44,012 nucleotides of DNA from Acidobacteriota bacterium. GTDB taxonomy: Bacteria > Acidobacteriota > Terriglobia > Acidiferrales > UBA7541. Shown here piece after piece: positions 1,315-16,168 of the stretch. Made by a program: the position numbers and the translations under genes. Every line of letters begins with the position of its first letter. The stretch's first letter is position 1. The notes under the pieces were generated by a model. It did not search any database, had not been told where the DNA came from, and was given only the letters and a program-made list of their open reading frames with translations. Where the stretch lies: NCBI GenBank assembly GCA_003223255.1, contig QHYJ01000011.1, positions 74,967-118,978 on the forward strand, given 5' to 3'.

Positions 1315-3917
1315 ATGAACGACGCAAGCGGCAATTTTGCCGACGAGACTATCGAGATGGCTTCGGAGTCAGGGGTGAATGCAAACACGGAACCGAGGAA
1401 ACGCCGCAGCACGCGCATTGTTCAGGCCGTTCCCACGGTTGCCGGTACCAATCGAAGCATTACGTGCTGAAAAACATGTGGCTGACGCTGGAAATTCCTC
1501 ACCCGGAAACGGGCCAGCCGCCGAGATCGGTGCGTGGCCGCGTGGCCTGGATTCAGCGGCCCCGCACGGTTCGCCAGCTCTTTCAAGTCGCGCTGGAACT
1601 GGAAGTTTCCGGCAATGTTTGGGGCATCGCGTTTCCGCCGGAGGATTGGTTCCCGTTTCCGGAGGGTGTGCAGTTTCCACCCGTGCTGGACGGAGCGCTA
1701 GAACCGCCACCGTTGCCTTCGCCCCTAGAGCCCGAGGTGACGACAGCCGTCAGGGAGGCCGAGCTTTCCGCGGCGAACGCACCGGCGAGCGCAGGCGACA
1801 ACTTGTGCGTCTTCCCTTCCCCCACGAGCACCACCGACGCGTCGCTCCAGTTGGCACGCCAGGTCGCAAGGCTCGTCGCCGACGCGCGGCAGCAAATTCA
1901 AGCCGCCGCGCAGGAAGCCGCCTCCCATGCCGTTTCCGCCGAGCGCCGCCTCTCCTTCGAGCAATGGGAACAGAAGTTTGCCGCCGGACGCGCAGAAATC
2001 GCCAATGAAACCACGCGCGCGATCGAAAAGCTGCAGCAGGAAACCGACAAGCAGTCGCAAGAGGCGCAGGCCGCTGCGGCAGAAGTGTGGCGAACAGAGT
2101 TGCCCCGCTGGCTGGCTCCGCAGTTGGAACAGCTCACTCGCGAGTTCACGGAGAGGCTTGCGCGGGAGGCACTCACCGAGCGTGGCGCACACGCACAGCA
2201 ACTCGAAACCGCAGCGGAGTCTCTTAAAGCCACTTCCCAGCAAGCGGAAGAAACCGTCGCCCGGCTGAAGACCCAGGCAGAACAAGCCGAAGCGGAACTG
2301 ACCTCGACTTTCACGTCCGCGCAGTCTTCCTGGCGCGAGCAAGTCAGCCAAGAGTTCGAAGCCGCTCACGCGCAATTACGCGAACGCCTGGAAGGCGCGC
2401 TCGTTGAGGCGCAAGACCGCGCGGCGGGCGGGTTGAATGTGCACCTGCGCTCGCTGCTCGCTCAGCTTCAGGAAGAAACCGCTCGACACGCCGCCGTTTT
2501 GCGAGAATCTGCGGAAACCTCCGGAGGGGAATGGGAACAGAAGCTGGCGGCGACGCGCAAATCGCTGCAGGAACAGTCGCAACAATTGGAATCTGTCCTT
2601 ACGCGCGCCGCAGAGGCCCACCAAAACCTCGAGCAGCATTCCGCTGAACTCTACAGCGCCCAACAACAGACGCTCGCAGCGCTCCATGCACAACTTGCCG
2701 ACACGCTCAGCCAGAGCCGCAGCGAATTGCATCGGGAATCCGAATTTCTCACTGAGCAAATCAACGCGCGCATTCTTGCCACCTTCGAAGGGGCCGCCAA
2801 CAAAGCGCGGGAGCAATTCGAAACGCAGATTCAGGAGATCGTGCAACCGCACATCGCACATGCCGAGGAGGCGATTCAGCGCCTTGCAGGCAGCCGGTCT
2901 CTGGTAGACGCTGCACTTACGCTGCAACAGGAGCGCATCCGCGCTTCCGCCGACGAAGCCTTCGCGGAATCCCTGGCGCACTTCCGCGAGAACCTCGGCG
3001 GCGTCGAGCAGATCTTCCGCGAGTCCTCGCAATCCATCACTGGCCAGTCCCTCGCGGAATTGGAAGCAAAAGTTGGGGATCTAAAGCACCAAGTCCTGGA
3101 TGAGCTTCTAAAATCCGCCGAGTGGTATGAGAAGAAAGCGCAGACACAAATCCAAAATCATTCGGAGAAAGCGGTAGAGCACGCCGAAAGTCAACTGCGC
3201 GACAAAGCCAGGGAAATCTCGGGCGTCTTCGCTACCGAACTCGATCATTCCAGCCGCAACTTCCTCGGGCACACGCAAAGGCAAATGGAAGAGGTGGTGC
3301 GCGATTCCTTCGAACGGGCGCGCGCCCTTTTCGGCGAAGCGGCCGACACAACGACCGCGGCGTTCATCGACGAAATTCAGCGCACTGCCCAGCAAGAGCT
3401 GGGAGGATACAACGAAGAACTCAAGCGCACCACCATACAAGAGCGCACCGAACTGGCACAGCAGGTCAATTCGGAGCAGGAAGCTTTTCTGAAGCGCTTC
3501 CAGGAATCTTTGGGCGGCGTTCTCCAAACGCGTGTTGCCGAGGTGCAGAAGACCGTATCGGAAGGCTTTGCGCCGCTGCTGGAACAATGGAAAAGGATCA
3601 CGGATGCGCACCAGCAGGAGATGAAGCGCGTTTACGACCGCATTGGCGAGCAAGCGGCGGAACAGCACAAGACGCGGCTCGAAGGTGTTTCGAATCAGTG
3701 GTTGCTGGCAACGGTTGCTTCGCTCGATCACCAGTCACGCGAAATGATTGCAGGCGTCGCCGCCGCCGCGGAAGAAAAACTTCGCGCGGCTTGTTCGCAG
3801 GTTTTCGAAGGTGTGGGCGATTCGCTGCGGCAACGGCTTAGCGAAATCGCGAAAAACTTCACGCCCCCAACGGAACCTCCTTCTCCGCGGGCGAAAGGCG
3901 CAAGCACGGGGAGCTGA
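1315..3917 (+). pseudogene. PilZ-like domain plus long coiled-coil protein, broken by a short out-of-frame deletion
   Basis: The ATG at 1315 opens a frame encoding a basic stretch ending RRSTRIVQAVP. It then runs out of frame and stops at 1468-1470. From about 1440 the next frame continues with HGCRYQSKHYVLKNMW and WGIAFPPEDWFPFP, then more than 700 residues of Ala/Glu/Gln-rich coiled coil, to a stop at 3915-3917. From memory of acidobacterial proteins with this PilZ-like N-terminus, about 25 residues normally separate QAVP from the CHGC-RYQSKHYV segment. They are missing here, and the junction near 1430-1445 shifts the frame. The downstream part has no in-frame ATG before 1476. The function of the intact family is unknown; the long amphipathic helices suggest a structural or scaffold role. 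Lesion or assembly error cannot be separated from sequence alone. Confidence 0.8.
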
Positions 3918-14643: not shown

Positions 14644-14997
14644 TCATTTCAAAAGCTTTTTGTACGCTTCTTCGTCAAAACCAAGAACCATTTGCGAACC
14701 GCGCATCACAATGGGCCTGCGAATCAGATTGGGTTCCTTGGCCATCAGTTGGATCGCTTCCGCGCGCGAAGGCGGATGTTCCTTCATGTTTCGCGTGCGG
14801 AAGATTTCGTTGCGCGGATTCAAAAATTCCCTGCAATCGCGCTGGCCGATCAGCGCGTCCAGTTCGGCCTCGGTCAAACGCTCCGTGCGCAAGTCGCGCG
14901 ATTCGAGTTCCACACCCAGTTCCAGCAAGAGACCCCTTGCTTTGCGGCAGGTAGTTCAGGTTGGCTTGTTGAGAAACTTGACTCTCACTTTGGGCAT
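14644..14997 (-). CDS. ArsC/Spx-family thioredoxin-fold protein, candidate selenoprotein (UGA at the catalytic Cys)
   Basis: From the ATG at 14997 the frame reads MPKVRVKFLNKPT, then TGA (14956-14958), then TTCRKARGLLLELG, and runs in the same phase to 14644 (117 residues). ArsC/Spx/YffB proteins carry KPTCTTCRKA-like motifs, so the TGA sits exactly at the redox cysteine of CxxC. The rest is intact and family-typical: RDCREFLNPRNEIFRTRNMK, LIRRPIVMRG, LGFDEEAYKKLL. Length is normal (about 115-118). A SECIS-like hairpin starts 15 bases after the TGA. GAAGG precedes the ATG as a Shine-Dalgarno. I infer selenocysteine, giving a UxxC oxidoreductase. The alternative is a TGC-to-TGA nonsense change, plausible because other genes here are damaged. 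If translation restarted at TTG 14928, the active site would be lost. Confidence 0.8.
14924..14941 (-). promoter_or_regulatory. Candidate bacterial SECIS element
   Basis: On the transcript, bases 15-32 after the UGA read AGCAAGGGGUCUCUUGCU: a perfect six-pair stem (AGCAAG/CUUGCU) with loop GGGUCU. The E. coli fdhF SECIS hairpin also has GGUCU in its apical loop at a similar distance (about 19-23 bases after UGA there, 22-26 here). The codons include AGG, GGT and TTG, which are not those a GC-rich genome usually prefers. This fits selection on RNA structure. Functional proof needs SelB binding or homolog conservation. Confidence 0.6.
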
Positions 14998-15019
14998 AGG
15001 ACCTTCGACGCAGAGGGAC

Positions 15020-15085: not shown

Positions 15086-15409
15086 TTAATACCGCGGGAC
15101 TTTGGAGTCGACTTCGAGCGACCAGCGCTCGATACCCCCGGCCAGGGACTTGGCACGCTCGAATCCTTGAAAACGCAGCCATGCCGCCGCATCCAAGCTT
15201 CGCATGCCGTGATGGCAATAACAAATCACCTCGTCGACGTCCGGCAGTGTATCCAGGCTGGCAGCCAGCGCGCCAAGGGGAACGTGTTTCGCGCTCTCGA
15301 TTCGGCAAATTTCAAATTCCCACGGCTCGCGTACGTCAACGAGCACTACATTTTCTCCGCGGTCGAGCCGCGCCTTCACTTCTGTCGGAGTAATTTCCAG
15401 TTGGTCCAT
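15086..15409 (-). CDS. Single-domain rhodanese sulfurtransferase
   Basis: A 107-residue rhodanese domain (GlpE-like size). It moves sulfane sulfur via a cysteine persulfide. VLVDVREPWEFEICRIESA is the conserved N-terminal motif, and the active-site loop is CHHGMRS, with the catalytic Cys encoded by an ordinary TGC. GGIERW near the C-terminus is typical. No signal peptide is present, so it is cytoplasmic. The ArsC-like candidate selenoprotein follows by 88 bases and the broken enoyl-CoA hydratase precedes by 9 bases, so they are probably co-transcribed. A sulfur or redox relay with the ArsC-like protein is inference from adjacency. Confidence 0.92.
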   Translation of the reverse strand: MDQLEITPTEVKARLDRGENVVLVDVREPWEFEICRIESAKHVPLGALAASLDTLPDVDEVICYCHHGMRSLDAAAWLRFQGFERAKSLAGGIERWSLEVDSKVPRY

Positions 15410-15418
15410 GTTCTTATT

Positions 15419-16142
15419 TTATTTCACTCTCCAAACCGGCTTGCGCTTTTCGAGGAAGGCGCGAATGCCTTCCTGCGCATCGCGCATTTGCATCAGCTCG
15501 GACAGGTATACGCGTTCCGCTTCTTCGAGGTGCTTCAGAAAATCGGACGAGTGAAGGCGGGCGAGAGTTCGCCGGGTCAAGTGGAGCACGCTGGGGCTCA
15601 GCGCTCGAAGCTCTTCGAGAAGCGCATCCACGGCGGCGGGAAGCTCATAGTCGGGAACGACGCGTGTGACCAGGCCGAGGCGGTGCGCTTCCGTGCCACT
15701 AATTTGATGGCCGGTGAGAATCAAGTGCGCGGCCGCTTGCATGCCAACGAGGCGAGGCAACGTCACCATCGCTACCGGCGGATAGCATCCTAGCCTGATT
15801 TCCGGCTGACCGAACTGCGCTGATTCAGTAGCGAGGACGAAATCGCAAAACGTGGCAAGTTCCATGCCGCCGCCAAGGCAGTAACCGTGCACAGCGGCAA
15901 TGGTCAGGCAATCGGCTGTGGCCAGGCGGCGAAACACGGCGTGAAACGCGGAAAGCGCAAAACGCCTTAACTCCCGCGCCCTGGAAAATCACGAAATCCG
16001 ATTTGGGCAGGGCGCGCTCAAGCGCCGCATCGAGCGCTTCCATCGTCGCAATATCCAGGATGTTCAGGGGAGCGCGGTCGAGCGTGATCCAGGCGGTGCG
16101 GTGCTCTAGACGGAGCTGAATGGTTTCGAGATGAGTGGCCAT
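15419..16142 (-). pseudogene. Enoyl-CoA hydratase/isomerase broken by a short out-of-frame deletion
   Basis: A crotonase-fold protein split over two frames. The N-terminal part (ATG at 16142) runs through LDRAPLNILDIATMEALDAA to FQGAGVKAF. The C-terminal part resumes one frame over with LSAFHAVFRRLATADC, AAVHGYCLGGGMELATFCDF and ends AFLEKRKPVWRVK. Between them, near 15955-15970, about 15 residues expected in the family are missing. They include the first oxyanion-hole segment (AGxD-type). An ordinary CoA-ester hydratase cannot form from either piece. It lies between an intact paralog and the rhodanese, with tight spacing, so it was part of the same operon. Assembly error is possible. Confidence 0.85.
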
Positions 16143-16168
16143 GCTTACCAAGCGTTTACATTTTACAG

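Follow-up and report, generated by a model that had tools for sequence, protein, structure and literature searches.

A probable ArsC/Spx-like selenoprotein gene with a UxxC motif and a SECIS-like hairpin in an Acidobacteriota genome

The window, which is the whole stretch of 44,012 nucleotides analysed here, carries on its minus strand an ArsC/Spx-like frame at 14644-14997 that starts with ATG at 14997, comprises 117 codons and terminates with TGA at 14646-14644. A Shine-Dalgarno-like GAAGG, found by inspecting the sequence by eye, is located at 15002-15006 (-), 4 nt 5' of the ATG. The frame contains a single internal TGA, at residue 14 (14958-14956, minus strand), and its translation is MPKVRVKFLNKPT-U-TTCRKARGLLL...KLLK, with the terminator TGA as position 118. 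In the CxxC motif of the ArsC/Spx-like protein, KPT-C-TTCRKA, the internal TGA stands in place of the first Cys, so that read with selenocysteine (Sec) the motif is UxxC (residues 14-17). Cys17, presumably the resolving cysteine, is encoded by TGC at 14947-14949 (-). A hairpin resembling a bacterial SECIS, AGCAAG-GGGUCU-CUUGCU, occupies 14924-14941 (-), with a stem of 6 bp and the loop at 14930-14935. Upstream of the gene lies that of a rhodanese-domain protein (15086-15409, minus strand), a conserved neighbour and presumed functional partner. Next to the rhodanese gene, an enoyl-CoA hydratase gene at 15422-16168 (-) is frameshifted, with 172 aa left in frame; it is either a pseudogene or the product of an assembly indel.

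With Cys placed at residue 14, the protein matched Pfam ArsC (PF03960) over residues 11-114 with 65.9 bits (E = 4.1e-18) against a gathering cut-off of 24. The AlphaFold2 model, built on an 11-sequence alignment, comprised a complete ArsC-fold domain with a mean pLDDT of 94.6. The best solved fold match was the ArsC-related protein 3gkx (Z 16.8, rmsd 2.0, 113 aligned), followed by Vibrio arsenate reductase 3f0i and YffB 1rw1 (Z 16.4 each); Spx chains gave Z 12.9-15.6 and E. coli ArsC Z 14.2-14.4 at 22-23% identity. The sequence-only reading had described a KPT-TGA-TTCRKA frame from ATG 14997 with an ArsC/Spx-like protein on both sides of the TGA, which translation, Pfam match and fold confirmed. 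By its motif and its predicted fold, the window protein is an ArsC-type UxxC oxidoreductase.

More specific assignments were also considered. A redox switch of the Spx/MgsR type, which would bind RNA polymerase and carry Sec in its sensing pair, would fit the Spx structures among the fold matches and the fact that the best sequence matches in the PDB were Spx proteins. With Cys in place of Sec, TIGR01617 (Spx/MgsR) gave 72.9 bits, which is under its cut-off of 75.05. In the alignment to the Spx sequences of the PDB, moreover, the window protein has a two-residue gap in the region of Gly52, the residue by which Spx contacts RNA polymerase, and the Spx chains, with 131-132 residues, exceed it in length by about 15. 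Such a switch is therefore unlikely. Among the relatives scanned, TIGR01617 was passed by L027 (a Cys form) and by L030 and L035 (Sec forms) and failed by L051, L021 and L065. The nearest solved sequences and folds of the Spx/MgsR and YffB/ArsC-related proteins (3l78, 1z3e, 3gkx and 1rw1) carry Cys or a mutant residue at the site, whereas the window protein would carry Sec.

That the protein is an arsenate reductase proper, dependent on selenium, is quite improbable, and more so than the switch. Glutaredoxin-type arsenate reductases (TIGR00014) have a catalytic arginine triad. The fold match to E. coli ArsC speaks for such an enzyme, but the window protein reached 40.8 bits against the TIGR00014 cut-off of 106.05, and a Pfam scan of 12 other ORFs of the window found no ars gene. 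With the UxxS arsenate reductase of the Sargasso Sea (TIGR00014) the protein shares Sec in the redox motif, as far as the available parts of the sources describe it (PMC1088965; PMC13188914), but its own motif is UxxC where the reported Sec arsenate reductases have UxxS.

ArsC/Spx-like UxxC selenoproteins are already known from metagenomes, so that the window gene, read as an ArsC-type UxxC selenoprotein, adds a member, though one below the cut-off of NF041106 (ArsC_rel_Se_1; 36.5 bits against 85). In the available parts of the reports, a UxxS arsenate reductase selenoprotein was described from the Sargasso Sea (PMC1088965), ArsC-like selenoproteins from Deltaproteobacteria in a survey that counted four selenoproteins of three families for Acidobacteria (PMC1794560), and a UxxC 'Arsenate reductase 2' (cd03032) from GOS (PMC2398784), while the UxxC arsenate reductase-like family of a 2026 review is NF041106 (PMC13188914). 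The deep-Sep paper, likewise in its accessible part, tested a single Acidobacteriota genome, in which three selenoprotein genes are known (PMC12013277). The statement in the sequence-only reading that ArsC-like selenoproteins had been reported from metagenomes agrees with what these sources give in their available parts (PMC1088965, PMC2398784, PMC13188914). The terms 'Acidobacteri', 'Spx' and 'TIGR01617' are absent from the main text of the review, as far as that text was available (PMC13188914), and a description of the window-type subfamily was not found among the matches listed for open-licence selenoprotein literature (ArsC, Spx, Acidobacteriota, NCBIfam).

Like 'Arsenate reductase 2' and NF041106, as characterised in the accessible portions of PMC2398784 and PMC13188914, the window protein is of ArsC type with Sec first in UxxC. 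It falls below the NF041106 cut-off, whereas the acidobacterial L094 is above it with 97.7 bits; judged by the score of that model and not by GOS sequences, the window protein would belong to a separate subfamily. Several ArsC-fold groups with Sec at the same site occur in the phylum: the window type, the L030/L035 type, a TIGR00014-like UxxC group (L072 and L079, below the TIGR00014 cut-off), a UxxS group (L096, above it) and the NF041106 group (L094).

To read the codon in relatives, loci were collected at three levels. Named genomes provided 10 loci; the nine from Acidobacteria (8 MAGs) share TGA at the residue-14 codon, which encodes Cys in the tenth, from Bacteriovoracaceae. In the phylum, 142 of 396 genomes had a match, and the best match held an internal TGA in 69 of them. 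Sites were read in 90 of the 142 matching genomes, including all 69, and the internal TGA, written as C for the alignment, aligned to residue 14 in 69 of 69. Within the window's order, where 69 of 95 genomes had a match, the residue-14 codon was TGA in 42, TGC in 24 and TGT in 4 of 70 loci from 68 genomes (G408 and G485 counted twice; two partial matches of G401 and two of G484 left out). A division at one codon into 42 loci with TGA and 28 with TGC or TGT indicates that the TGA stands at residue 14 beyond chance. The pairing of Cys and TGA at this site, which the sequence-only reading had proposed to look for by aligning homologs, was thus found in the phylum, the order and the named genomes.

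The TGA was also associated with SelB. Taking genomes as they are, shared ancestry included, SelB scored over its cut-off in 68 of 69 TGA genomes of the phylum against 35 of 73 without TGA (Fisher 4.6e-13), and in 39 of 41 TGA genomes of the order against 19 of 27 others (Fisher 0.011). In this count G128, the genome of L028, was entered as no-TGA (the locus is TGA in the site reading and the motif counts), and the Cys genome G433 as without SelB, its SelB pieces lying on two contigs and below the cut-off. The TGA genomes without SelB over the cut-off were three: G277 (97% complete), G422 (77%) and G480 (73%). The G277 locus, L070 (G277:C2), has an in-frame TAG soon after its TGA, which looks like decay following loss of Sec decoding. 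In L028 (G128:C31, about 1750-1812, minus strand) the hairpin is kept and the sequence upstream is unrelated; the break may come from a chimeric assembly or be real.

The window's own genome (6.66 Mb in 428 contigs, 97% complete) has as its nearest named relatives Acidobacteria MAGs, mostly labelled gp2. A search of it for selA, selB, selD and the selC tRNA-Sec had been suggested in the sequence-only reading, and all four are present over their cut-offs: tRNA-Sec with anticodon UCA at 64.9 bits (Rfam cut-off 47), SelA at 566 (curated cut-off 267.9), SelB at 359.9 (242.25) and SelD at 350.1 (125). The selD gene itself holds a TGA, at AGUAAK. Two formate-dehydrogenase-like genes (L193 on C191 and L194 on C130) have one TGA each within the match, and a UHxP motif search gave UHAP and UHGP at the TGA; the first scored 638.2 bits over model positions 51-672, just under the cut-off of 666.25, and the second 174.1 bits. 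Given TGA at the Sec positions of selD and of these two genes, UGA apparently serves for Sec at other places in the genome as well. After the UGA of the first formate-dehydrogenase-like gene, GGUCU lies in a stretch that appeared pairable by eye, and the RNAfold minimum-energy fold differs from that pairing.

In the window gene, the hairpin (14941-14924) places 20 nt between the UGA and the loop. It satisfies all bSECIS limits given in the available part of the 2026 review: a loop of 3-9 nt, a stem of 4-16 bp, G in the first two loop positions and a distance of 16-37 nt (PMC13188914). As implemented here, this rule was passed in the order by 41 of 42 TGA loci and by 15 of 28 loci with Cys, in the phylum set by 15 of 20 loci with Cys, and by 45-56% of synonymous recodings; since about half of the recoded controls pass, the general rule was set aside as a test. 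Folding energy was likewise rejected as proof of a SECIS, because the window gene did no better than shuffles or recodings and Cys genes did nearly as well. The energy of the window hairpin was not unusual (z 1.72 over 76 nt and -0.20 over 34 nt; p 0.496 against synonymous recodings) and did not separate the two forms, with a mean z of -1.62 in 78 TGA loci against -1.39 in 21 Cys loci, and p <= 0.05 in 34 of the 78 and 8 of the 21.

Sequence conservation in the hairpin was more informative. We chose 15 window-type genes, leaving out the near relatives L028 (broken) and L058 (another hairpin). The loop, AGGUCU in 14 of them and GGGUCU in the window gene, presumably equals that of E. coli fdhF. 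The hairpin codons GCA, GGT and TTG are invariant in 15 of 15 genes, whereas elsewhere in the same genes a single codon is kept in 0 of 22 invariant columns of amino acids with four or six codons. A compensatory change was observed in the stem, AGA/AGG (Arg) to AAA (Lys) on one side accompanying CTC to CTT on the other. The covarying pair is G-C in 10 and A-U in 4 of 14 distinct rows, and 84 of 84 cells are paired, which was reached by 1 of 500 shuffles. A bSECIS-type hairpin downstream of the UGA is therefore conserved together with the UGA.

TGA genes and Cys genes of the window's order can be told apart by the loop sequence: GGTCT, 15-45 nt from the codon, was present in 38 of 42 TGA loci (absent from L142, L174, L185 and L186) and in 0 of 28 Cys loci, counts that are inflated by relatedness of the loci; for an independent-pairs test of the motif the pairs were too few. 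In the wider phylum set GGTCT occurred in 8 of 70 TGA loci and 0 of 20 Cys loci, so that it marks the window's group and not the whole family, other groups using other hairpins. Close relatives with Cys and no hairpin had been named beforehand as evidence that would count against Sec. Four genomes of the window's genus (G425, G426, G432 and G433) literally answer that description; since TGA and motif are retained together in many more relatives, we regard these four as cases of ordinary Sec/Cys switching.

With the sequence itself, the presence of the machinery genes, the conservation of the site, the covariation in the hairpin and the predicted fold in agreement, the 117-residue ArsC-fold protein is very probably a selenoprotein in which TGA codon 14 is decoded as Sec, and we infer with near certainty that Sec is really inserted at UGA 14956-14958. 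The UxxC selenoenzyme proposed in the sequence-only reading is thus supported by the Sec machinery, the Cys/TGA pairing at the site and the link of TGA to SelB and to the GGTCT hairpin motif. The same reading had warned that damaged genes nearby might point to a TGC to TGA nonsense mutation or base error in a decaying gene. The damage is real in the enoyl-CoA hydratase gene, which is whole in the relatives L051 and L055, and indels or errors therefore do occur nearby; the ArsC-like gene is not touched by it. TGA at the same codon in many other, separately assembled relatives, the conservation of the remaining protein and the Sec machinery in the genome make such an error very improbable. It is equally hard to maintain that the TGA is a plain stop and that the true product is the 94-aa ORF from TTG 14928, which does appear among the standard-code ORFs: the conserved first strand of the fold and its KPT are encoded ahead of the TGA, in Cys homologs this segment is continuous with the rest of the frame, and the 94-aa product would be without the active site. 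That UGA is a general sense codon of the organism can be practically dismissed, since the window gene itself terminates in TGA and the relatives, as far as read, have TGA inside their domains on one codon only.

In the selenoprotein reading, SelB carrying Sec-tRNA(UCA) would bind the hairpin at 14924-14941 and decode UGA 14956-14958 as Sec, and UGA 14644-14646 would keep terminating translation. In the UxxC redox site of this thioredoxin-like fold, Sec14 would act as the nucleophile and Cys17 as the resolving thiol; the resulting thiol/selenol oxidoreductase might, for example, reduce a persulfide or mixed disulfide on the upstream rhodanese or on a small thiol. In a manual count, 27 of the 31 distinct order loci with enough upstream sequence have a rhodanese gene immediately upstream, the short-flank loci L153-L192 being excluded; it is missing there in L058, L141, L145 and L149. 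It adjoins Sec forms and both Cys forms tested (L139 and L143). Genes for a macro-domain protein, a methyltransferase and enoyl-CoA hydratase are further common neighbours in the window's genus. At L021-L049, the loci from other families and classes, tblastn found none of the window's neighbours within flanks of up to 1.5 kb. We tentatively suggest that the protein may be a thiol/selenol oxidoreductase linked to the upstream rhodanese. The standard code truncates the window gene, so that redox selenoproteins of this kind, from a phylum common in soil, are easily missed. Translation of the window with TGA as an amino acid, for its part, produced no more than a long series of mechanical ORFs.

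On each of the two best trees, parsimony changed the Sec/Cys label 6 times; well-supported branches force 5 and 3 of the 6 changes on the two trees, which have few columns behind them. Both trees were made without duplicates of L050-L058 (L124-L129, L131, L174 and L191) and without the broken or partial L028, L059, L183 and L192. The first tree further omitted L070-L123, and the second, used for the AU tests, comprised only the order, L021-L027 and L050-L058, without L188 and L190; the motif and bSECIS counts kept all loci dropped from the trees. The TGA genes L058, L185 and L186 nest among Cys forms on the best trees and have a different hairpin sequence in a Cys-like protein background. By the perfect-stem rule a hairpin is present in L185 and L186, and L058 fails. 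Regain of Sec from Cys in these three genes was not established by the AU tests, which gave p 0.253 for the 14 same-genus Cys genes as one clade and p 0.0504 for the 21 Cys genes of the family. A wider scenario, in which soil Acidobacteriota possess a Spx-like subfamily with Sec that cooperates with a rhodanese to reduce persulfide or sulfane sulfur, and in which one bacterial family lost Sec to Cys and later regained it at that codon along with a new SECIS, is speculative and unlikely to hold as a whole. The loci include Sec forms and close Cys relatives, with the hairpin motif present or absent and at times within a single genus; they provide material to test the benefit of Sec in ArsC-fold enzymes and to follow how a SECIS is gained or lost.

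Further ArsC-fold groups with TGA at the same site were seen in phylum genomes among L071-L116, L094 and L096 included. The sequences after the TGA of the two formate-dehydrogenase-like genes, GGUCU in L193 and AAGUUU in L194, recur in ArsC-like genes, the former in those of the L020 type and the latter in L142.
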